The position numbers and the translations under genes were made by a program. Of a DNA stretch of 64,000 nt, positions 23,524 through 48,068 are shown one piece after another (positions within the stretch are counted from its first letter, which is position 1; the number at the start of each line of letters is the position of its first letter). The DNA is from Anaerolineae bacterium (GTDB lineage: Bacteria; Chloroflexota; Anaerolineae; Aggregatilineales; Ch27), in the NCBI GenBank assembly GCA_013178165.1, contig JABLXG010000015.1, forward strand, positions 62,001-126,000. The letters are read 5' to 3'. The notes beneath the pieces were generated by a model. It saw nothing but the letters and a program-made list of their open reading frames with translations, was not told the DNA's origin and ran no database searches.

Positions 23524-23838
23524 ATGAGGAACGAAACTGACCGCGCTGTATGGCGCAAACGCTGGGAAAACCGCCTGGCTGTCTGGGGGGAGCGGTTGCG
23601 CGCCTGGGGGCTGGAGGGGCTGGTGGCGGCGTTGCTGGAGGCTGCCGAGCCGCTTGGCCCGCTGGGAGCGCAGGCGCTGTACGTGGCTCAGCCTGCCCTG
23701 GGTGTCTTTCTCCCGGCGGAGTCGGTTGGGCGCTGGGCGCGCGCGCTGGAGGACCCGGCCACGCTGGCCTGGCTGCGCGCCGGTCTGACCGCGGCGAATC
23801 CGGATGAGGAAGGGCCGTCTGATGGACCCGCTGACTAG
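23524..23838 (+). CDS. small protein of unknown function heading the membrane gene cluster
   Basis: The 104-residue protein is helical and charged (RNETDRAVWRKRWENRLAVWGERL), then Leu/Ala/Pro-rich. It has no membrane helix or recognisable domain. It overlaps the start of the next gene by 17 bases, which points to translational coupling. A -10 element (TGCTATACT) sits nine bases before the ATG and no ribosome site is visible, as for a leaderless message. The alternative in-frame start at 23449 lies upstream of that promoter. I do not recognise it. Confidence 0.6.
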   Translation: MRNETDRAVWRKRWENRLAVWGERLRAWGLEGLVAALLEAAEPLGPLGAQALYVAQPALGVFLPAESVGRWARALEDPATLAWLRAGLTAANPDEEGPSDGPAD

Positions 23839-24682
23839 TATCTTTACCCTGCTGGTGCTACTGGTCACCTTCGTGCTGATCACGGTGGTCGCCCAGTTCC
23901 TGCGGCGGCAGCGGCGATTGCGCCTGGCGCTGCGGCCTATCGCCGCTTACCGATCGATGCCGATCCTGGTCAGCGAGGCGGTAGAAAGCGAGCGCCCGGT
24001 GCACATCTCTTTTGGCGGCAGTGGGCTGGGGCTGGAATCGACGATCTCGGCGCTGGCTGTCGCTGATCTGATGTACCCGCTGGTGGAGCGCGCCTCCGTC
24101 GCCCGCCAGACGCCGCTGATCACGCTGAGTGATCCGACGGCGCTGGGCCTGGCCCAGGGCACGCTGATCCGCGCCTATCGCCGCCGGGAGACGCTCGGCG
24201 CTTACCGCAGCCCTGCCGTGCGCTGGTACCCGCAGGGGCCGCGCTCGCTGGCCTTCGCGGCGGGTGTTGGCGGGGCGCTGGCTGATGAAGACGCTAACAT
24301 GAGCGTGGTGGGCGGGCGCTTTGGCCCGGAGATCGCCTTCATCGGGGAGGCCGCCTACCGCTATGATCAGACCTTTTTCGCCCAGAGCGACGATCTGGAC
24401 GGCCAGGCCATCGCCTGGGTGATGGCCGGGCGGCCCCTGCTGGGCGAGGAGTTGTATGTCGCCGGGGCGTACCTCCCGGCCAGGCCATCGGCCCTGCATC
24501 TGAGCCAGTTGCTGGCCATGGATGGCCTGCGCCTGCTGGTTGTGGTCGCCATTTTGCTGGTGGCGGCGTTCACCGCTATCCGGGAATACTTTGTCCAGAT
24601 CGCCATCGGGCTGGGCCTGATTATCCTGCTGATCGGCGTCTACTACGGGCTGATGTTCCTGCGCGCGCGGAGGAGGGCCTGA
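23822..24682 (+). CDS. membrane protein of unknown function (DUF6754-like)
   Basis: The 286-residue protein has one N-terminal membrane helix (SIFTLLVLLVTFVLITVVAQFL), a soluble middle domain of about 190 residues, and two C-terminal helices. The middle domain has ISFGGSGLGLESTISALAVADLMYPLVERASVARQ, followed by PLITLSDPTALGLAQGTLIRAYRRR and a FIGEAAYRYDQTFFAQSDDLDGQAIAWVMAGRPLLGEELYVAGAYL core. I associate this pattern with DUF6754 proteins found mainly in Chloroflexota; no function is known to me. The start at 23822 overlaps the previous gene. It is followed by a second membrane protein three bases later. Confidence 0.65.
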   Translation: MDPLTSIFTLLVLLVTFVLITVVAQFLRRQRRLRLALRPIAAYRSMPILVSEAVESERPVHISFGGSGLGLESTISALAVADLMYPLVERASVARQTPLITLSDPTALGLAQGTLIRAYRRRETLGAYRSPAVRWYPQGPRSLAFAAGVGGALADEDANMSVVGGRFGPEIAFIGEAAYRYDQTFFAQSDDLDGQAIAWVMAGRPLLGEELYVAGAYLPARPSALHLSQLLAMDGLRLLVVVAILLVAAFTAIREYFVQIAIGLGLIILLIGVYYGLMFLRARRRA

Positions 24683-24685
24683 GCG

Positions 24686-25312
24686 ATGCGGCGAGTACTG
24701 GCGGTGCTGGCTTCCAGCCTGGTGCTGGCGCTCGGTCTGATCACGCTCTGGGGCCTGTTCCCCGGTTCGCCGGTCGCGCCGGTAGCCGCCGCGCTGATCC
24801 AGCTGGTAGTGATCGTCAGCGCGGTAGCGGTGCTGGTGGGTGTCCTGAACCTGCTATGGGTGCATCTGCAGCGCGTCATTAACGGCGATCCCGGCTGGCC
24901 GTACAGCCTGGTGCTGTTTCTCGCTGCCCTGATCGTGATTGTGCTGGTCACGGTGGAACGGCTGGGTCTGGTGGCCGGTGAGCAACTGAGCGGTTTTCTG
25001 TTCAGCGCGGTGCAGGTCTCAGTGGAAAGTGCGCTGGCCGGGCTGCTGGCGTTTTTCCTGGTTTTTGCCGCAGCGCGTTTGCTCCGTCACCGTGTCACCT
25101 GGGCAGCCGTGCTCTTTGTCATCACCCTGTTGATCGTTCTGCTCGGCTGGGTGGGGCTGCCCGCCCTGGGCCTCGTAAACGACCTGAGCGCCTGGATCCG
25201 CAATGTACCCGCCGTCGCCGGGGCGCGCGGCCTGCTGATCGGTATCGCCCTGGGTGCTGCCGCGACCGGCGTTCGGGTACTGCTGGGGCAAGACCCCAGC
25301 TATCGGGAGTAA
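24686..25312 (+). CDS. six-helix membrane protein of unknown function
   Basis: The 208-residue protein is almost entirely hydrophobic, with about six helices and short loops (for example ALIQLVVIVSAVAVLVGVL and WAAVLFVITLLIVLLGWVG). The few charged residues sit at helix ends (LQRVINGDPGW, AARLLRHRV). No transporter or enzyme signature is visible. GGAGGAGG lies nine bases before the ATG. The position between two other envelope-linked genes of the cluster suggests a shared membrane complex; that is inference. Confidence 0.65.
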   Translation: MRRVLAVLASSLVLALGLITLWGLFPGSPVAPVAAALIQLVVIVSAVAVLVGVLNLLWVHLQRVINGDPGWPYSLVLFLAALIVIVLVTVERLGLVAGEQLSGFLFSAVQVSVESALAGLLAFFLVFAAARLLRHRVTWAAVLFVITLLIVLLGWVGLPALGLVNDLSAWIRNVPAVAGARGLLIGIALGAAATGVRVLLGQDPSYRE

Positions 25313-25318
25313 ACGGCT

Positions 25319-28300
25319 ATGACCGACGACCGGCCTATCCCCCCGGAAGATGAGGGCCTGCCGGAATGGCTGCGGGGCTTTGACCTGCCGCCGGATGACG
25401 ACCGGCCGGCTGGACCACCCCCACAGCGGCCCGTCGATTCCCTGGATTTCCTGCGCGATGTCGGCGGCGAACCCCAGCCCGGCATCCGCGATACCGCGAC
25501 CATGAAGCCAGTTTCTTCCGGCGCGCCCCCCGCCAAACCGGGACGCAAGCAAATCCTGGAAGAAAATGATGACCTGCCCACGGTAGAGGAACTGCGCGGC
25601 ATCACCGCCACCCTGCCCTGGATGCGCGACCTGCTGGGCCTGGAACCGCCCCCGGAACCTGCGCCTGCCGGGGAGCTCCCCCCCAGTCCTCCTGAACCTG
25701 CCGCCGACGAACTGGACTGGATGGCCTTTGAAGCGGAGGCTGAACAGGGTGCGCCCGGCGCGCTGCCGGACTGGCTGGCCGGGGCCGAGCTGGACATGGA
25801 ACAACCGCCATCTGAAGAGCCGCCGGCTCCACCACGGCCACGGGCTGAACTGCCCGACTGGCTGGCCGGGATGGAGGAGGAAATTCTGCCGCTGGAACCC
25901 GGCCAGGCCGCCATCCCCACCGGAAAGCCAGAAGCGCCCCCGGCCTGGGCGATAGAACAACCCGCCATGCCGCCTGTCGAGGACAGCGACCTTTCCTACG
26001 AGGAATGGGAACGGCTGCAGGAAGAAGCCGGGCGTGAGCCAACCGAGGCTGAAAAGCTGGCTGAGGAAGTGCCCGAATGGTTCGAAGCCATTGCCGAAGG
26101 CGAACTGCCCCCGGCGGAACAGCCCCCCGCTGCCGCCGAGGCCGCCGGACCGGAGTTCATGCCGGACTGGTACTTGGGCCTGGAAGAACAGGAGCAGGCG
26201 CAAAAGCCGGCGTGGTTCTCCGCAATCGACTATTCGCCGGATGCGCTGACCGCTGAGCCGGTCATCCCGGAAAAGGCCCCCGAACCGGAGCCATCGCTGG
26301 AGGACATCCCCGACTGGTTCGCCGAGGCTGAGGCTCCGGCAACACCGCCCGAACCAGGGCCGGAAGTACCCGCGTCGGCGGAGATACCCGACTGGTTCGC
26401 CGAGGCTGAGGCTCCGGCGGCGCCACCCGCGCCGGAGCCGGAAGCACCCTCCGAAGAGGAGGTGCCCGACTGGTTCGCCCAGGCTGAAGGTCTGCCCACG
26501 CCGGAGGCGCCCGCCGCGGCAGAGGTGCCCGACTGGTTCGCCGAAATCGGGCTGACGCCCTCCCAGGAGGCGGATTGGATGGCCGATCTGCAGGCCGCCG
26601 CGCCGGAGGAAGAGCAGGCCACCCCACCGCCGCCCGCCGGAGAACCGGCCCCGCCGGAAACACCAGTGCCAGAAGCTGAGGCGCCCCGCCCGGTGCACAT
26701 CACCGAGCCGCCTGCCTGGCTGGGCGACCTGCCGTTTGAGCTTGAGCGTGCCCCCGCTGAGGCGGAAGCGCCACCACCGCAGCCCCCTGCTGAGCCGGTC
26801 GAAGAATTCATGCAGCTGATCGAGGAGAAGCTGGGTGAGGTGGAAGCGCCTGCCCCGCTGGCCACCGGCCAGGACGCATTGGTGCCGCTGGAGCAGGCCG
26901 AGTTCGACCTGGATGAACTGTTTGCCGTGGCGGAGTTGCCGCCGGAAGAAGAAGCCGTTGAGCAGGCACCTCCGCCAGGGGCAGAAATCACGGCGACACA
27001 ACTCCCGGATTGGCTGGCTGGCGTGCAGGTTGGCGGATTCTCCGCCGTCCGCCAGGTTATGGATGTTGGCGAGACCCCGCTCGAGGAACTGAGCGAGCGC
27101 CTGCGCGCCCTGCGCGAGCACACCCTGGCCGCGGCTGAGGCCGCGCCGCCGCCTTCCCCGGCCCCGACCACACCTGCGCTGGATGGAATCACCGACGGCC
27201 TGGCCCCGGCGACCGTCTTTGACAATATGGCTGGCCGGGAAATGATCCTGGAAACCCGGCTGGATGAGCGCCAGGCAGCGCGTGTGGCGACGCTGTCCAG
27301 CCTGCTGGGGGTGGGTGAAGAAGCTGTTGCCCGTGACGCCGAAGGCCGGCCGGTCACCCTCACCGGCGCCCAGCAGGCCGTACGCATCGCGGAGGCGGCC
27401 AGGCGCGCCCGTGCCCGCAGCCGGGTCAAACCTGCCCGCGTGCTGGTCACGCTGGCGCTGCTGGCGGCGCTGGTGCTGCCCTTCCTGGTCGATGTTTCCG
27501 CGCTGCTACCGCTGCCGCCGGCAGCACTCGACCCGGCCAGCCACGGGACGCTCGACGCAGCGATCGAGGAACTGGACGAGCGCTCACAGGTGCTGGTCGG
27601 TTTTGAGTACGGTCCGACCGCCGCCGGGGAGATGGACGCCCTGACCAGGGCGCTGCTGACCCATGTGTTGCTCCGGGGGGCCAGACCGGTGATCGTCAGC
27701 ACCAATCCGGCGGGCGTGCTGCAAGCCCGCAATGTGCTGGCTGACCTGGCCGCTGATCCCTTCATCCTGGCCCGGCGAGGCCGCACTGCCGCCCTGACCA
27801 TGCCGGATGATTACGTGATCCTGTCCTACCTGCCGGGCGGGGTGGTCGGCCTGCGCGCCCTGACTGCCACCAGTACCGACGCCAGCGCCCTGGATCGCGG
27901 CCTGTTTGCCGTCGATCTGGAAGGCCGTCCGACCGGCCTGGACATCCGCTTCCTGCAGACGGCGTTTGACCTGGCGCTGGTCTTTGGCGAACGCGGCGAA
28001 GATGTCCGCCTGTGGGTGGAACAGGTCGGCGCGGCGGTCAAGCTGCCGCTGGGCGCGGCGGTCGCCGCCGGGGCGGAGCCGGTGGCCCGCCCGTACCTGA
28101 CTTCCGGCCAGTTGATCGGCCTGCTGGCCGGTTACCGCGACGCCTACAGCTACGACGCCGTGCTGCGTTCGGCCCTGGCCCAGGCGGGCGGTGAGGCCCC
28201 CGGCGGGCGGTTGACCACCGGCACGCCCGTGCCCAGCCCAACTCCCAGCCCCACGCCGACGCAGCGCGTCACCGCCACACCAACATCCACGCCTGCTGAC

Positions 28301-28576
28301 GAAGACCTGACGGCCACCGCCCTGGCTTCCGGCACGCCAACTGTGATCCCCAGCGCCACACCCCGCGTGATCATCACCGCTACGCCGGTTCCCACGCAGG
28401 TGCGGCCTGCCGTCGAATCACAGGCGCCAACGCCTATCCCGCCGCCGCCCGCGCCGCCGGAACGTGACACGCGCTGGTACAGCATGACGCTCGGTGTGCT
28501 GGCCGCCGGAGGGCTGATCGGCCTGGGGGCGCTGGTCAACTTCGCTCAGTGGATACGCCGGAGGCGAGAGCCGTGA
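25319..28576 (+). CDS. large protein with repeated P-x-W-[LFY] motifs and two membrane helices
   Basis: This 1085-residue protein has a Pro/Glu/Ala-rich cytoplasm-like part of about 700 residues carrying at least twelve copies of P-[DEA]-W-[LFY], starting at residues 15, 150, 179, 252, 282, 297, 331, 357, 383, 404, 465 and 563. Several are near identical (PDWFAEAEAPA). It then has a membrane helix near residue 705, an ordered domain of about 270 residues (LDERSQVLVGFEYGPTAAGEMDAL, then VVGLRALTATSTDAS), a Thr/Pro-rich stretch and a final helix. Acidic linkers with regularly spaced tryptophan motifs look like docking sites for a partner. No enzyme motif was found. It overlaps the next gene by four bases if that starts at GTG 28573. 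Confidence 0.7.
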   Translation: MTDDRPIPPEDEGLPEWLRGFDLPPDDDRPAGPPPQRPVDSLDFLRDVGGEPQPGIRDTATMKPVSSGAPPAKPGRKQILEENDDLPTVEELRGITATLPWMRDLLGLEPPPEPAPAGELPPSPPEPAADELDWMAFEAEAEQGAPGALPDWLAGAELDMEQPPSEEPPAPPRPRAELPDWLAGMEEEILPLEPGQAAIPTGKPEAPPAWAIEQPAMPPVEDSDLSYEEWERLQEEAGREPTEAEKLAEEVPEWFEAIAEGELPPAEQPPAAAEAAGPEFMPDWYLGLEEQEQAQKPAWFSAIDYSPDALTAEPVIPEKAPEPEPSLEDIPDWFAEAEAPATPPEPGPEVPASAEIPDWFAEAEAPAAPPAPEPEAPSEEEVPDWFAQAEGLPTPEAPAAAEVPDWFAEIGLTPSQEADWMADLQAAAPEEEQATPPPPAGEPAPPETPVPEAEAPRPVHITEPPAWLGDLPFELERAPAEAEAPPPQPPAEPVEEFMQLIEEKLGEVEAPAPLATGQDALVPLEQAEFDLDELFAVAELPPEEEAVEQAPPPGAEITATQLPDWLAGVQVGGFSAVRQVMDVGETPLEELSERLRALREHTLAAAEAAPPPSPAPTTPALDGITDGLAPATVFDNMAGREMILETRLDERQAARVATLSSLLGVGEEAVARDAEGRPVTLTGAQQAVRIAEAARRARARSRVKPARVLVTLALLAALVLPFLVDVSALLPLPPAALDPASHGTLDAAIEELDERSQVLVGFEYGPTAAGEMDALTRALLTHVLLRGARPVIVSTNPAGVLQARNVLADLAADPFILARRGRTAALTMPDDYVILSYLPGGVVGLRALTATSTDASALDRGLFAVDLEGRPTGLDIRFLQTAFDLALVFGERGEDVRLWVEQVGAAVKLPLGAAVAAGAEPVARPYLTSGQLIGLLAGYRDAYSYDAVLRSALAQAGGEAPGGRLTTGTPVPSPTPSPTPTQRVTATPTSTPADEDLTATALASGTPTVIPSATPRVIITATPVPTQVRPAVESQAPTPIPPPPAPPERDTRWYSMTLGVLAAGGLIGLGALVNFAQWIRRRREP

Positions 28577-29223
28577 CGCCACAAGCGCTTGACGCCATCG
28601 GGGTCTGGGTGGGGTTCATCCTGACCCTGCTGATCTTCAGCTACCTGCTGACCGACAACTTCCTGTACCGGCTGACGGTTTATCTGTTCGTGGGGGTGGC
28701 GGCGGCCTATACCGGCGTGGTTGCCGTGGAAGGCGTGCTGTTGCCCTGGCTGCGCGGGACGTTGCTGGCCCCCGCGCCGCAAACCGGGCAGATTGTGCTG
28801 GGCCTGATTCCCCTGCTGGTCGGCGGCCTGCTCCTGCTCAAAGCCATCCCGGCCCTGGCCCCGCTGGGCAACCTGGGCCTGGCCTTCCTGATCGGCATCG
28901 GCACAGCGGTGGCGCTGATCGGCACGATCAGCGGCACGCTGATCCCGCTGGTCTACAGCAGCGGCGCGGCCATCGGCGATGATTTCATCAACGGCCTGAT
29001 CCTCATCCTGGGCACGATCACCACCCTGCTGTACTTCCAATACCTGTCTGTTAAGACACCGGAAGGGGAGGTGGTGCGACCTCTGCCAGTGCGGGTGGCT
29101 GGCGGCATTGGCCAGATTTTCCTGATCGTGACCTTCGCTTCGCTCTATGCCGGCGCGATCCTCTCCAGTCTGACCATCGTCAGCGAGCGGATCGCCTTCC
29201 TGCTGGCGCGTGTGCTGGGCTGA
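28573..29223 (+). CDS. polytopic membrane protein of unknown function
   Basis: The 216-residue protein has about six or seven hydrophobic helices with very few charged residues. Examples are WVGFILTLLIFSYLLTDNF, VLGLIPLLVGGLLLLKAI and LAFLIGIGTAVALIGTI. It has no signature I recognise. I prefer the GTG start at 28573, which overlaps the previous stop (GTGA) and has GGAG at a good distance. The ATG at 28549 has no ribosome site, but cannot be excluded. It precedes the MutL-like gene by 12 bases. Confidence 0.65.
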   Translation: MTPQALDAIGVWVGFILTLLIFSYLLTDNFLYRLTVYLFVGVAAAYTGVVAVEGVLLPWLRGTLLAPAPQTGQIVLGLIPLLVGGLLLLKAIPALAPLGNLGLAFLIGIGTAVALIGTISGTLIPLVYSSGAAIGDDFINGLILILGTITTLLYFQYLSVKTPEGEVVRPLPVRVAGGIGQIFLIVTFASLYAGAILSSLTIVSERIAFLLARVLG

Positions 29224-29235
29224 GTGGTGTGAGCC

Positions 29236-31347
29236 ATGGCTGGGACGAGCGACCTTAAATCGATCATCGCGGTGGATTTCGGCAGCGTCAACACACGGGC
29301 AGTGCTGATCGACCTGGTGGACGGCGTGTACCGTCTGGTGGCCCGCACCGTGACGCGCACCACCGCCGACGATCCGCTGCGCGACGTGGCGGTGGGTCTG
29401 TTCCGCGCCCTGGCGGCCATGGAGGAGCAAACCGGGCGCCGTTTGCTTGATGCAGGGCAGCAATTGCTGACCCCGGAAACCCGCGATGGCGCCGGGGTTG
29501 ACGCCCTCTTGGCGACAGCCAGCGTGGGGCAGCCGCTGCGCGTGGTGGTCGCCGGCCTGATGCCGGATGTCAGCGTGGCCAGCGCCCTGCGTGTACTGGC
29601 CGGATCGTATGTCACTGTTGTCGATACGCTCTCGCTGGCGGATGTCCGCACAGAAGAGCAGCAGATCAACGCCATGCTGGCCCACAAGCCAGACATGATC
29701 TTTATTGTCGGCGGCACAGACGCCGGGGCGGAGGAGCCGATTCTCGATCTGGTCAGGGTCGTGCGCAGCGCGGTACAGATCGCCGCCCCCCGGCCAATGG
29801 TGCTCTACGCCGGCAACCGCGCCGCCCAGGATCAGGTGAAAGCCCTGCTGGAGGGGCTGTGCACGCTGGAAGTCGCCGATAATGTGCGGCCTACCCTGGA
29901 GGAAGAAACGCTCGGCGGCGCACAGCAGGGGCTGGCTGTGCTCTACGACCGTTTCAAGATGGCAAGCGGCGGCGGTTTTGACGAGGTGAGTAAGCTCAGC
30001 AGGGTCGGTGTGCTGCCCACCGCCCAGAGCCTGACCAATATCGTGCGTTACCTGGGCGAGGTAGCCGCCCGCGACCGGCGCAACCCGGCCCAGGGGGTGC
30101 TGGCGGTTGATGTTGGCAGCGCCACCACCACAGCGGCAGCTTCCATCCAGCGCCAGCCGTATATCAACATCCGCACCGATATCGGCATCGGCCACAGCGC
30201 CGCTACACTGCTCGACTTCACCACGCCGGGCAACCTGCGCCGCTGGCTGACCTGGGACGCCTCTGATTCTGAGATTGTCTCTTACCTGCACAACAAAGCC
30301 CTGCGCCCGGCCACCGTGCCCCAGACCACCCGCGAGCTTGAGCTGGAATACGCCGCTACGCGGGAGGCGATCCGCGTGGTGGTTGAGCAGGCCCGCGCAT
30401 CCTGGAAGATCGGCCCGCCGATGCCCGTCCTGCGCCCGATCATCGGCGGTGGGGCGGTGCTGGCCAACACGCCGCACCCCGGTCTGGCCGCCCTGCTCCT
30501 GCTGGATGCCATCCAGCCGGTCGGCGTGACCGAGCTATGGCAGGACCCGGTCGGCCTGATCCCGGCGATGGGCGCGCTGGCTTACCTCAAGCCAGAAGCG
30601 GTCGTGCAGATGATCGACGAAGGCGATCTGATCCGCCTCGGCTCGGTGGCCTGCATGGAAGGGGAAGTGCGGCGCTTCGGACGCGGCGGCATGCGGGTGA
30701 CCATCCGACTGGCGGATGGCCAGGTGGTGCGCCGCGATATCGCCGCCGGTACGATCTGGACTTATCCGTTGCCGCCCGGCCAGACGGCAGCCGTCGACAT
30801 CAGCGTGACACGCGGCCTGACCATCGGCGGGCGTGGGCGCATCCGCCTGCAGATGAACGGCGGTGCTGCCGGCCTGATCTTCGATGCACGCGGCCGTCCG
30901 CTGCCGCTGCCGCGCGATGCTGAGGCGCGGGCGCAGCTTTACCCGCGCTGGGCCGCCGGTACGCGGGGCGTCATCCCGCGCCGCGCCGACGAAGTCGATG
31001 AGTCGCAGGTGGGGCGGGACGAACTGGATCGCGTCGCCCTGCAGCTGGAAGCGGAAGTGGCCGTCACCGGGCCGGAGGAAGAAGATCTGCTGGAAGTCTC
31101 CGATGCCCCCATCCGGCCTGCCCGGCGCCGCCTGTTTGGCTTCCTGCGGCGGCGATCAGCCCTGGCGGTGGAGGACGCGCTTGAGGAGGAAGAGGCGGAG
31201 GGTGCACCAGCTGGCCGGGCAGCCCAGGCAGGGCCGAACGGCGATGGGCAACTGACGCCGGGTTCGCCCTCGACCAAACCGTTCATCGACGATGAGGAAT
31301 TACGCACTGAGTTACGTGGGGCAAAGGGTCGCCGCCAGCGCCGTTGA
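29236..31347 (+). CDS. MutL/GlmL-family actin-fold ATPase
   Basis: The 703-residue protein begins IIAVDFGSVNTRAVLIDLVDG, the phosphate-1 loop of the actin/Hsp70 fold, and repeats the motif as AVDVGSATTT at about 291-299. A glycine-rich PIIGGGAVLANTPHPG segment follows. This layout matches the MutL/GlmL family, usually encoded beside glutamate mutase or ornithine aminomutase subunits and thought to protect or reactivate those B12 enzymes. No mutase gene is in this window; the neighbours are membrane proteins. The last 180 residues extend beyond the ATPase core, with an acidic, Arg-rich tail (RPARRRLFGFLRRRS). The real partner here is unknown. Confidence 0.85.
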   Translation: MAGTSDLKSIIAVDFGSVNTRAVLIDLVDGVYRLVARTVTRTTADDPLRDVAVGLFRALAAMEEQTGRRLLDAGQQLLTPETRDGAGVDALLATASVGQPLRVVVAGLMPDVSVASALRVLAGSYVTVVDTLSLADVRTEEQQINAMLAHKPDMIFIVGGTDAGAEEPILDLVRVVRSAVQIAAPRPMVLYAGNRAAQDQVKALLEGLCTLEVADNVRPTLEEETLGGAQQGLAVLYDRFKMASGGGFDEVSKLSRVGVLPTAQSLTNIVRYLGEVAARDRRNPAQGVLAVDVGSATTTAAASIQRQPYINIRTDIGIGHSAATLLDFTTPGNLRRWLTWDASDSEIVSYLHNKALRPATVPQTTRELELEYAATREAIRVVVEQARASWKIGPPMPVLRPIIGGGAVLANTPHPGLAALLLLDAIQPVGVTELWQDPVGLIPAMGALAYLKPEAVVQMIDEGDLIRLGSVACMEGEVRRFGRGGMRVTIRLADGQVVRRDIAAGTIWTYPLPPGQTAAVDISVTRGLTIGGRGRIRLQMNGGAAGLIFDARGRPLPLPRDAEARAQLYPRWAAGTRGVIPRRADEVDESQVGRDELDRVALQLEAEVAVTGPEEEDLLEVSDAPIRPARRRLFGFLRRRSALAVEDALEEEEAEGAPAGRAAQAGPNGDGQLTPGSPSTKPFIDDEELRTELRGAKGRRQRR

Positions 31348-31373
31348 GTGAGAGCGCGGGCGGTTGCCGATCT

Positions 31374-31420
31374 GCCCGCCACGGTCGGGAGGTCTATGGC
31401 GGGCCGGGCTTTGCTTTTTT
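31374..31420 (+). terminator. hairpin with T-run between the MutL-like and KOW-like genes
   Basis: GCCCGCCA (31374-31381) pairs perfectly with TGGCGGGC (31397-31404); a T-run TTTTTT occupies 31415-31420, about ten bases beyond the stem. It suggests at least partial termination inside the cluster and a separate start for the next gene. Confidence 0.55.
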
Positions 31421-31491
31421 GGGCCTTCGGGCTTTAAATAGGGATACCCGGCGCACCATACTGGCGACGAGAGCCAAAGAGTCAGCGGATT

Positions 31492-32568
31492 ATGGCTACT
31501 TACTACCCGGATCAGACGACCATCCTGCCCATGACGACCATCCGCCGGGAGCGCACGCTACCGCCGGATGTCATCGGCGAGGTGACGGTACAGCTTGATG
31601 CGTTTGTCAGCGCCGTGGATGTCGTCGCGCGCGGCACACGCGCCAGCCGTTACCTGGTGATCGACCTGCGGAACGCGCTCGGCGTGGACGACCCGGCTGC
31701 TATCGCGGCCAGGCTACACGTCCGGGCCGATCAGGTCATCCGCAAAGGCGATATCCTGGCCGGGGACAAAAAGAACCGCCGCACGCTCCTGCGCGCCCCG
31801 GTGACCGGCAGGGTGCACAGTGTGGTGGATGGCCGGCTGGTGCTAAAGACCGGCCTGAGCGAGGTTATTGTGCGAGCTGGCTTCCGGGGCGTGGTGACTT
31901 CCGTCCGACCGCGCGGTGTGTTGCTGGAGACAACCGGCGGGCTGGTGCAGGGGGTATGGGGCAACGGGCGCAGCTGCCTGGGCGCGCTCAAGATGGCTCC
32001 GCGCGGCGGGCTGGGGGTGCTGGAAATAGAGGAAATCACGCCCGACTGGCGGGGAGCGATCGTTGTCAGCCCGCAGCCGCTGGACCGCCTGGCTCTGGCC
32101 AAGGCAGAGGCGCAGACCCTGGGGGCGGTCATTGCGCCCTCCATGCCAGCGGACTTGCGCCCGGTCGCGCTAAAGCTCAAAATCCCTATAATGTTGACTG
32201 AGGGCTTTGGCTCGGAACCGATGAACCGGCTGGCTCAGGAGGTGCTGGAATCCTACGCTGGCATGCAGGCGTCGCTCAGCGCCCATGAGCCAAACCGCTG
32301 GTCGCCGGATCGACCGGAGGTGATCATCCCGGCGCAAGCCGATCTCAGACCGCCTCCGCCGGCCCGCGACGAGCCGCTCCGTCCCGGCGCGGAGGTGCGC
32401 ATCATCCGCCAGCCCTATGCCGGGACGATTGGCCGGGTCCGCAGCCTGCCGCGGGTCCCGCAGCGCATTGAGAACGGCCTGCGCCTGCCGGTGGCGGAAG
32501 TCCTCCTGCCCAGTGGGCGGACGGTGACAGTCCCGCTGGTTAACCTGGAACTGTTTGGTCGGGGTTAA
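31492..32568 (+). CDS. barrel-sandwich and KOW-like domain protein of unknown function
   Basis: The 358-residue protein has an N-terminal region with a barrel-sandwich-hybrid pattern (VIRKGDILAGDKKNRRTLLRAPVTGRVHSVVDG), like biotinyl/lipoyl or RnfC-type modules, and repeats of short beta strands. A Pro-rich linker leads to a C-terminal KOW-like segment: GAEVRIIRQPYAGTIGRVRSLP, then VAEVLLPSGRTVTVPLVNLELF. It has no membrane helix. The KOW motif is found in NusG and ribosomal L24, where it binds RNA or protein. It lies after the MutL-like gene, separated by a terminator-like hairpin. I do not know its function. Confidence 0.7.
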   Translation: MATYYPDQTTILPMTTIRRERTLPPDVIGEVTVQLDAFVSAVDVVARGTRASRYLVIDLRNALGVDDPAAIAARLHVRADQVIRKGDILAGDKKNRRTLLRAPVTGRVHSVVDGRLVLKTGLSEVIVRAGFRGVVTSVRPRGVLLETTGGLVQGVWGNGRSCLGALKMAPRGGLGVLEIEEITPDWRGAIVVSPQPLDRLALAKAEAQTLGAVIAPSMPADLRPVALKLKIPIMLTEGFGSEPMNRLAQEVLESYAGMQASLSAHEPNRWSPDRPEVIIPAQADLRPPPPARDEPLRPGAEVRIIRQPYAGTIGRVRSLPRVPQRIENGLRLPVAEVLLPSGRTVTVPLVNLELFGRG

Positions 32569-46754: not shown

Positions 46755-48068
46755 ATGAGCGACGAACCCATCCAGCCCCCCACGCCCGGTGATCCCCGGC
46801 CCGCTGGTGGGCCAGACGAAATTCCGGACTGGCTGCGGCGCATCCGCGACCGGCGGGTAGCCGAAGCCGCGGCGCGCCGGGCGCGCGCGGCAGCACCCCC
46901 GCCACCGACGCCATCCCCTGATGCCGGTGCAGTGGCGGACACCCCCGCGCCAGCGGAAGGCATCCCGGCCTGGCTACAGGATGCCAGCGCCCGGCCAGAA
47001 GAAGCCGCCGGAGAAGCCGGCCCGGCCTGGCTGGAGGCAGCGCTGATGCAGAAAGCGACGGGCCAGGGGCCGCAGCCGGTCTCCCTTCAAGCGTCGGATG
47101 AGCCTGTTGCAGCGCCTGCTATGCAGGCGGCGCCCGTCGTACAGGCGACCGCTGTAATAGGGGGACCAGCGACCATCCAGGAAGACCCCGCCGCTGCCCG
47201 CGCTCGCCGCCGCCGGGAGCGCCGGGCCAGGGCGCGCCATGCCAGCCCGCTGCTCAACATGATCCAGTCGCTGATGGTTGTCGCTGCTGCCGCTGCTCTG
47301 ATCGCCACCATTTTCACGTTCTGGACTCCGGCCAGCTTCCTGAGCGATGAAACACGGGAAGGTCTGCGCCCGGCTTACGCTACCCTCAGCGCCCAATCGC
47401 CGCCAACGCCGATCCCGACGCCGATCTGGATGCGGCGCATCGGCATCGTTAGCGGGCACTGGGGGCCGCACCCCAGCACCGGCCGCAGCGATCCCGGCGC
47501 AGTCTGCCCGGATGGCCTGACCGAGGCTGAAGTCAACCGCAACGTCGCCCAGCTTGTCGTCCAGGCCCTCAGCCGGCGGGGCTATGACGTTGACCTGCTG
47601 GACGAATGGGACCCGCGCCTGGACGGCTACCAGGCCTCGGTGCTGCTGTCCATCCACGCCGACTCCTGCCATCAGTTCACCCTGCCTGGTGCGACCGGCT
47701 TCAAGGTCGCCCCGCCCGCTTCTCGCACATCCGCCCGCGCCGATGACCTGCGCCTGCGCGATTGCCTGCTCCAGCGGTACCAGGCGGTCACCAATATGCC
47801 CGTGCATCCCAGCATCACCCGTGACATGACCGAGTACCATAGTTTCAACGAGATTTCCGAGGTCACCCCGGCGGGGATTATCGAACTGGGCTTTCTGTAC
47901 GAGGATCGCGATTTGCTAGAAAACCGGCCTGATCTGCTGGCGGAGGGAATCGTCCAGGGGTTGCTGTGCTTCCTGGAGCAGACTGTGCCCACGCCATTGC
48001 CGGAACTTACCCCCTGGCCGACGCTCGAATCGACGCCTACGCCCCTGCCTTCGCCCGGCCTGTCTTGA
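46755..48068 (+). CDS. N-acetylmuramoyl-L-alanine amidase (Amidase_3) with P-x-W-L motifs
   Basis: The 437-residue protein has a cytoplasmic N-terminal part with PDWL (24-27), PAWL (71-74) and PAWL (90-93), then a membrane helix near 175-195 (MIQSLMVVAAAAALIATIFTF). A Pro-rich linker follows, then the amidase domain from about 228. His235 (SGHWG), Glu257 (TEAEVN), His301 (SIHADS) and the Glu of GIIELGFLYE form the zinc and catalytic site of Amidase_3. It would cut the stem peptide from peptidoglycan outside the membrane. The P-x-W-L motifs are those of the large protein at 25319. No ribosome site precedes the ATG. Confidence 0.9.
   Translation: MSDEPIQPPTPGDPRPAGGPDEIPDWLRRIRDRRVAEAAARRARAAAPPPPTPSPDAGAVADTPAPAEGIPAWLQDASARPEEAAGEAGPAWLEAALMQKATGQGPQPVSLQASDEPVAAPAMQAAPVVQATAVIGGPATIQEDPAAARARRRRERRARARHASPLLNMIQSLMVVAAAAALIATIFTFWTPASFLSDETREGLRPAYATLSAQSPPTPIPTPIWMRRIGIVSGHWGPHPSTGRSDPGAVCPDGLTEAEVNRNVAQLVVQALSRRGYDVDLLDEWDPRLDGYQASVLLSIHADSCHQFTLPGATGFKVAPPASRTSARADDLRLRDCLLQRYQAVTNMPVHPSITRDMTEYHSFNEISEVTPAGIIELGFLYEDRDLLENRPDLLAEGIVQGLLCFLEQTVPTPLPELTPWPTLESTPTPLPSPGLS

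Follow-up and report, generated by a model that had tools for sequence, protein, structure and literature searches.

The genomic region analysed here (hereinafter the window, i.e., the whole stretch of 64,000 nucleotides) encodes a large membrane protein, designated A, with multiple copies of the short motif P[DEA]W[LFY] in its N-terminal tail, and an amidase, designated B, that contains the same motif. A preliminary description of the sequence interpreted these copies as docking elements for a common cytoplasmic partner. The locus therefore raises the question of whether the motif is a product of composition or a functional element and, in the latter case, which proteins share it and which could receive it.

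Motifs of protein A and amidase B

An exact recount returned the same 12 copies in protein A (1085 aa) and three in the amidase (437 aa), at the residues originally reported. The features of protein A are as follows.

25319..28576, plus strand: protein A; acidic disordered cytoplasmic N-terminal tail with 12 motifs (approximately residues 1-590), helix, extracytoplasmic domain, second helix
25361..25372, plus strand: motif 1, core PEWL in LPEWLRGF, residue 15
25766..25777, plus strand: motif 2, PDWL in LPDWLAGA, residue 150
25853..25864, plus strand: motif 3, PDWL in LPDWLAGM, residue 179
26072..26083, plus strand: motif 4, PEWF in VPEWFEAI, residue 252
26162..26173, plus strand: motif 5, PDWY in MPDWYLGL, residue 282
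26207..26218, plus strand: motif 6, PAWF in KPAWFSAI, residue 297
26309..26320, plus strand: motif 7, PDWF in IPDWFAEA, residue 331
26387..26398, plus strand: motif 8, PDWF in IPDWFAEA, residue 357
26465..26476, plus strand: motif 9, PDWF in VPDWFAQA, residue 383
26528..26539, plus strand: motif 10, PDWF in VPDWFAEI, residue 404
26711..26722, plus strand: motif 11, PAWL in PPAWLGDL, residue 465
27005..27016, plus strand: motif 12, PDWL in LPDWLAGV, residue 563
27425..27487, plus strand: first membrane helix (approximately residues 703-723), with RARARSRVKPAR just before it (sequence, alignment, helix in a weak model)
27488..28486, plus strand: extracytoplasmic part, a family domain conserved across Chloroflexota followed by a Pro/Thr-rich stretch
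28487..28549, plus strand: second membrane helix (approximately residues 1057-1077; sequence, alignment)

The motif-bearing tail is the N-terminal part of the protein, ahead of the first membrane helix. The copies are mostly 21-135 residues apart, with one interval of 15, and degenerate versions (LPWM, LDWM, ADWM) also occur. The amidase features are listed below.

46755..48068, plus strand: amidase B; cytoplasmic tail with three motifs, then a helix (approximately 47256-47324) and an extracytoplasmic Amidase_3 domain (47445-47963)
46824..46835, plus strand: motif 1, PDWL in IPDWLRRI, residue 24; site conserved in five of the five family genomes
46965..46976, plus strand: motif 2, PAWL in IPAWLQDA, residue 71
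47022..47033, plus strand: motif 3, PAWL in GPAWLEAA, residue 90

The Amidase_3 domain (PF01520) was recognised with an E-value of 1.7e-10 and 41.7 bits (curated cut-off, 27). In both proteins a run of arginines precedes the membrane helix. By the positive-inside rule, the motifs are therefore cytoplasmic in A and in the amidase alike, an arrangement relative to the first helix that had been proposed from the beginning.

The copies are far too numerous to be explained by composition. Among 20,000 shuffles of residues 1-590 of protein A, the mean number of motifs was 0.14 and the maximum 3 (12 observed); shuffling of residues 1-150 of the amidase gave a mean of 0.006 and a maximum of 1 (3 observed). 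The preliminary description had itself named an equal motif frequency in P/A/E-rich proteins of the same genome as the outcome that would speak against it. Seven of 452 ORFs (about 0.57 Mb of this genome) contain a 150-aa segment with at least 42% P+A+E; a motif cluster is present in four of them, namely A, the amidase and two pieces of a TPR protein, designated CD, while the other three contain no copies at all. A scan of about 380 kb of this genome detected no comparable cluster. A scan of 3.1 Mb of loci yielded 197 ORFs with at least two motifs, all of them being A, CD, fragments of these, amidases of family f1, or a zinc-ribbon/transmembrane protein beside MutL; as these loci were fetched mostly around A, CD and the amidase, the scan is not a proteome-wide census. 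Taken together, the shuffles, the P/A/E-rich control and the two scans led us to reject an origin by chance or composition.

Consensus and conservation of the motif

From 218 copies in A tails and 811 in CD, the consensus [DE]-[LIV]-P-[DE]-W-L-[KRSA]-x-[LA] was derived. The real element is, accordingly, longer than P[DEA]W[LFY] and can be written as [DE]-[LIV]-P-[DE]-W-L-x-x-[LA]; its second position after the acidic-aliphatic pair, i.e., the residue following the proline, is often Ala in A tails outside class Anaerolineae. In the amidase and CD, identity within the motif cores is about 0.78 versus 0.39 for the remaining tail, a difference somewhat favoured by the alignment programs, which align on Trp. 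The motif thus forms a short conserved island amid diverging sequence, and it recurs in unrelated proteins (A, CD and amidase B) on the same side of the membrane, judging by the positive-inside rule; both properties are those looked for in a short linear docking motif.

Tandem duplication of DNA could, in principle, have spread such units as a functionless low-complexity repeat, and some proteins do have this appearance: one piece of CD in the window's genome (piece C) contains 12 similar copies, and protein A of genome G305 is built of SDVPAWLREEA units. In most proteins, however, both copies and linkers have diverged while the core stays, and a single consensus is found across unrelated families, on the cytosolic side in both membrane proteins, so that we regard mere repeat expansion as highly improbable. 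Another possibility is that the tryptophan motifs act as stickers having no dedicated receptor, with weak mutual contacts condensing A and CD. The number of copies, their acidic disordered linkers, the spacing of 15-135 residues and the highly variable copy number are all in line with self-association, but the motif is far more specific than stickers need to be (Pro is fixed, with an acidic residue before it, Leu after the Trp and Leu at +6), is scarcely found in other proteins rich in P/A/E, and is represented in the amidase by three copies, which are few for condensation. This makes self-association improbable in our opinion.

Protein A family and its operon

Protein A is encoded within a conserved gene cluster, the other members of which are listed below.

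23804..24682, plus strand: DUF6754 membrane protein (PF20539, synteny)
24686..25312, plus strand: membrane protein without an assigned family (synteny)
28549..29223, plus strand: membrane protein without an assigned family (synteny)
29236..31347, plus strand: MutL/GlmL-like protein (PF13941, synteny)
31492..32568, plus strand: NqrA N-terminal-like protein (just below the curated cut-off, synteny)

The gene order DUF6754, 24686, A, 28549, MutL-like, NqrA-like (23804-32568 of the window) is conserved across class Anaerolineae and largely kept in other Chloroflexota classes too. Protein A, including its outer domain, had no sequence match in Pfam, NCBIfam or PDB, and a comparison of the outer domain with DUF6754 gave no convincing relationship (hhalign probability 1.5%, E 0.035). 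A single-sequence AlphaFold2 model of A (pLDDT 44.8) was too poor for use, and no paper on DUF6754 was found in the literature searched. Of the 199 class genomes scanned, 117 gave a match to A, which in some cases was weak and fell outside the domain. Most of the retrieved orthologues from the class have 1-13 motif copies; the length and sequence of the tail vary between genomes, and the motif stays. In much of the class the N-terminus of A is a double zinc ribbon, which the window's protein lacks. A short protein adjoining MutL in family f96 (L301, 4213-4953, minus strand) combines two zinc ribbons with two motifs and a single membrane helix, and resembles A minus the outer domain.

TPR protein CD as the second carrier

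The sharing of the motif between A and the amidase, on which the preliminary description was centred, is present in the window but proved to be local. Motif-like sites of the amidase are kept over diverged linkers in all five genomes of the window's family, whereas none of 29 other amidase homologues, several of them from the same order, has the motif. Amidase N-tails from other genera of this order (L263-L266, L273) share a different, conserved cytoplasmic sequence, P-x-S-V-x-F-M-E-M-M-R-x-A-A, possibly another docking motif. The main second carrier of the motif lies outside the window: it is CD, found in every genome of the class that was examined for a second cluster.

CD consists of a TPR domain, a disordered motif-bearing tail and a short C-terminal TPR; the assignment (TPR_19, E 1.6e-18) is backed by a structural model and Foldseek. 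In most of the remaining class CD is a single protein, while in the window's order (L052, L092, L149) it is represented by two adjacent genes, C (N-terminal TPR) and D (C-terminal TPR). In the window's genome these are adjacent ORFs on contig C23 (L052, 2940-9189, minus strand), with 15 motif copies in one and four in the next. A scan of named genomes for the CD TPR gave 80 loci, all in records named as Chloroflexota, mostly Anaerolineae. The AlphaFold2 model of one CD protein, built from 51 aligned sequences, has confident TPRs at approximately residues 1-255 and at 676-759 (TPR pLDDT about 96) and a tail mostly below 50, in which most motifs are predicted as helices of 5-7 residues with local rises of pLDDT; no docking or interface could be read from this model. 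Foldseek retrieved only generic TPR superhelices, PEX5 among them. As for the genomic neighbours of CD, only housekeeping-type genes recur (named by eye, e.g., a likely thymidine phosphorylase and a nucleoside-diphosphate kinase), and they were discarded as partners.

Two further elements of the CD tails deserve mention. One is a second repeat, D-[DA]-x-AWLESLAAKQGA-x-PEEL, predicted to form a 17-residue helix (L205 CD, 432-456; L093; D of the window's genome, L052). The other is IPDFLRxAGW, a nearly invariant Phe version of the motif that occurs once per tail (L205 CD, residues 314-323) and is closely similar to the FtsZ tail.

Distribution across Chloroflexota and joint loss in A and CD

A strict DNA pattern, which misses the P-A-W-L form, occurs, by manual summation, about 5.5 times per genome of the class versus about 1.0 in the reversed control, and is near the control level in most other Chloroflexota. 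With a relaxed pattern, 13-22 copies were found in the A tails of eight genomes outside the class (families f65, f75, f101, f104 and f122), and wherever the neighbourhood was read these motif-bearing A proteins belong to the same operon. The motif in A therefore probably dates back to an ancestor of much of the phylum. By contrast, none of the five full-length CD proteins from outside the class contains the motif, although A has many copies in each of G349, G209, G253 and G261, genomes with such motif-free CD, as well as in G305; hence, the copies in CD are probably an addition of Anaerolineae.

Within the class, the states of A and CD agree in all 45 genomes compared: the motif is in both proteins in 26, in neither in 19, and no genome is mixed, three entries with split or incomplete frames having been set positive by hand (CD of G077, CD of G019 at L092, and A of G434 at L103). 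The 19 negative genomes include 14 with motif-free CD and five without CD. Five further motif-free A proteins come from genomes likewise having no CD match, which brings the class total to 24 genomes with motif-free A, CD being motif-free or absent in all of them. On the best tree of the A domain both traits change five times, together; as supported branches account for only two independent pairs, the concordance is not statistically significant. Outside the class it breaks down, as the motif-free CD proteins accompanied by motif-rich A show.

Six genomes of the class (G044, G049, G090, G051, G190 and G150) have motif-bearing A and no CD match; they are drafts, 82-93% complete. Close relatives of the first three have CD, whereas among the genomes sampled no relative of the last three does (families f43 and f51). 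G063 is a borderline case.

Possible function and candidate receptors

Several observations partly support the docking element, with its putative common cytoplasmic partner, of the preliminary description: the conserved islands over unalignable linkers, the common consensus in unrelated proteins, the restriction to few families, the joint loss and the predicted short helices. On balance we consider the motif likely to be a docking peptide in many copies that all bind a shared receptor in the cytosol, irrespective of which protein this is. Each copy would fold as a short amphipathic helix with Pro at the N-cap, one face formed by Trp, Leu and the Leu at +6, and an acidic rim, and would fit one binding site on the receptor. 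Protein A, as the ancestral, membrane-anchored carrier, could then serve as a high-avidity hub. CD would have gained the same tag in Anaerolineae and joined this hub, while the amidase, having acquired three copies in the window's family, would be brought to the same membrane site as A, coupling wall cutting outside the cell to an assembly inside it.

The leading candidate for the receptor, tentative as it is, is the N-terminal TPR domain of CD, which in this role would join A and CD to each other in a network bound to the membrane. The CD TPR accompanies the A motifs in most genomes, the six draft genomes of the class without a CD match standing apart. Conservation of 12 TPR positions falls from 92% in motif carriers to 30% in non-carriers, against 86% for another 40 conserved positions, most of them structural; the 12 were picked after the non-carriers had been seen, and eight of the nine non-carriers represent one family. 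Outside the class, genomes in which A has the motif retain 6-8 of the 12 positions (non-carriers, 1-6), but at the other 40 they retain fewer than the best-conserved non-carriers do. This conservation pattern supports a link between the TPR surface and the motif rather than binding as such. R44 and V78 of the domain occupy position 5 in the usual TPR numbering, and position 5 of a TPR lines the concave groove. The lack of a CD match in the sampled genomes of families f43 and f51, despite the motifs in A, speaks against CD as a required receptor. The MutL-like protein is disfavoured as a receptor, and the other operon genes are likewise weaker candidates, because they mostly persist in the motif-free family f38.

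The likeness of the motif to the FtsZ tail (DIPAFLR versus DVPAWLR) makes FtsA and SepF rival candidates. In this case the motif would imitate the C-terminal peptide of FtsZ, bind its receptors and thereby recruit all three carriers (A, CD and the amidase) to the site of division. FtsZ of the window's genome ends with MDIPTFLRKR, and an FtsA-like gene (named by eye) is located directly upstream; A proteins of other classes contain DDVPAWLRDAE and GDLPDWLRDIA, the amidase contains DEIPDWLRRIR, CD has its nearly invariant Phe copy, and an amidase as a client suits septal wall cutting. However, Trp replaces Phe in 92-96% of the copies, the residue after Pro is mostly acidic in Anaerolineae, and the copies are internal and repeated rather than single at a C-terminus. 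Nor does mimicry alone account for the loss of the motif in whole families, since FtsZ and FtsA are expected throughout. Mimicry of FtsZ thus appears to us rather unlikely, and membership of the motif in the FtsZ-tail family is rejected on account of its position, copy number and Trp.

Returning to the docking peptide with a TPR receptor, its fullest version is a membrane hub specific to the phylum, in which the operon would display up to about 20 copies of a new tryptophan docking helix on the cytoplasmic tail of A, read by a dedicated TPR receptor, and clients would join this multivalent assembly by acquiring the tag; in Anaerolineae the receptor would bear the same tag, and the amidase would be an example of a client. 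We put this version forward as doubtful.

Comparison with known systems and significance

The motif is real, conserved and multi-copy in a membrane system of Chloroflexota, where it is most likely a docking peptide. Our search of the literature, mostly open-access papers, returned none joining Chloroflexota and "short linear motif", and none of the papers listed treats PDWL or PAWLR as a protein motif, which suggests that, as a multi-copy docking peptide, it has not been previously described. As the motif is short and simple to search for, occurs in much of the phylum and is tied to a conserved operon, the partner can be looked for directly with synthetic peptides; a role could also be assigned to two protein families without a name in the libraries searched. 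Division and envelope biology of Chloroflexota are poorly known, and, should the amidase prove to be a real client, the motif would connect a scaffold inside the cell with cutting of the wall. Amidase B has the same catalytic domain as other Amidase_3 N-acetylmuramoyl-L-alanine amidases (PF01520), but of the homologues compared, those of the window's family alone have the motif-bearing cytosolic tail.

Among known peptides, the closest is the C-terminal one of FtsZ (DIPAFLR), with the common order of an acidic residue, Ile/Val/Leu, Pro, any residue, an aromatic one, Leu and often Arg. The E. coli FtsZ tail, DYLDIPAFLRKQAD, binds several division proteins, including ZipA, FtsA, MinC and ZapD (PMC4117426), and that of B. 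subtilis binds FtsA, EzrA and SepF (PMC12747378). Like the motif described here, this peptide is attached by a disordered linker, and it binds cytosolic partners. The D-I-P-x-F-L-R consensus matches our motif except for Trp in place of Phe, and CD even holds the F version, IPDFLR. The FtsZ peptide, however, is present in one copy at the C-terminus of the FtsZ core, while several internal copies occur here in proteins other than FtsZ.

In layout, CD resembles PEX5, in which a TPR domain is combined with a disordered region whose repeated Trp motifs dock on a partner. The motif itself differs, the fold match is only that of generic TPRs, and peroxisomes are not known in bacteria. Assemblies built by multivalent peptide tags are familiar from eukaryotes, with fewer descriptions from bacteria. 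Among known mechanisms, the closest is that of the pyrenoid linkers EPYC1 and CsLinker, largely disordered proteins with repeated short helices spaced to cross-link one partner (PMC11570498). Helices about 20-120 residues apart, as in such linkers, are matched here by the spacing in A and by the short motif helices predicted in the low-confidence tail of CD. Unlike the pyrenoid linkers, A is anchored in the membrane and its partner is not Rubisco; no relation in sequence is claimed.
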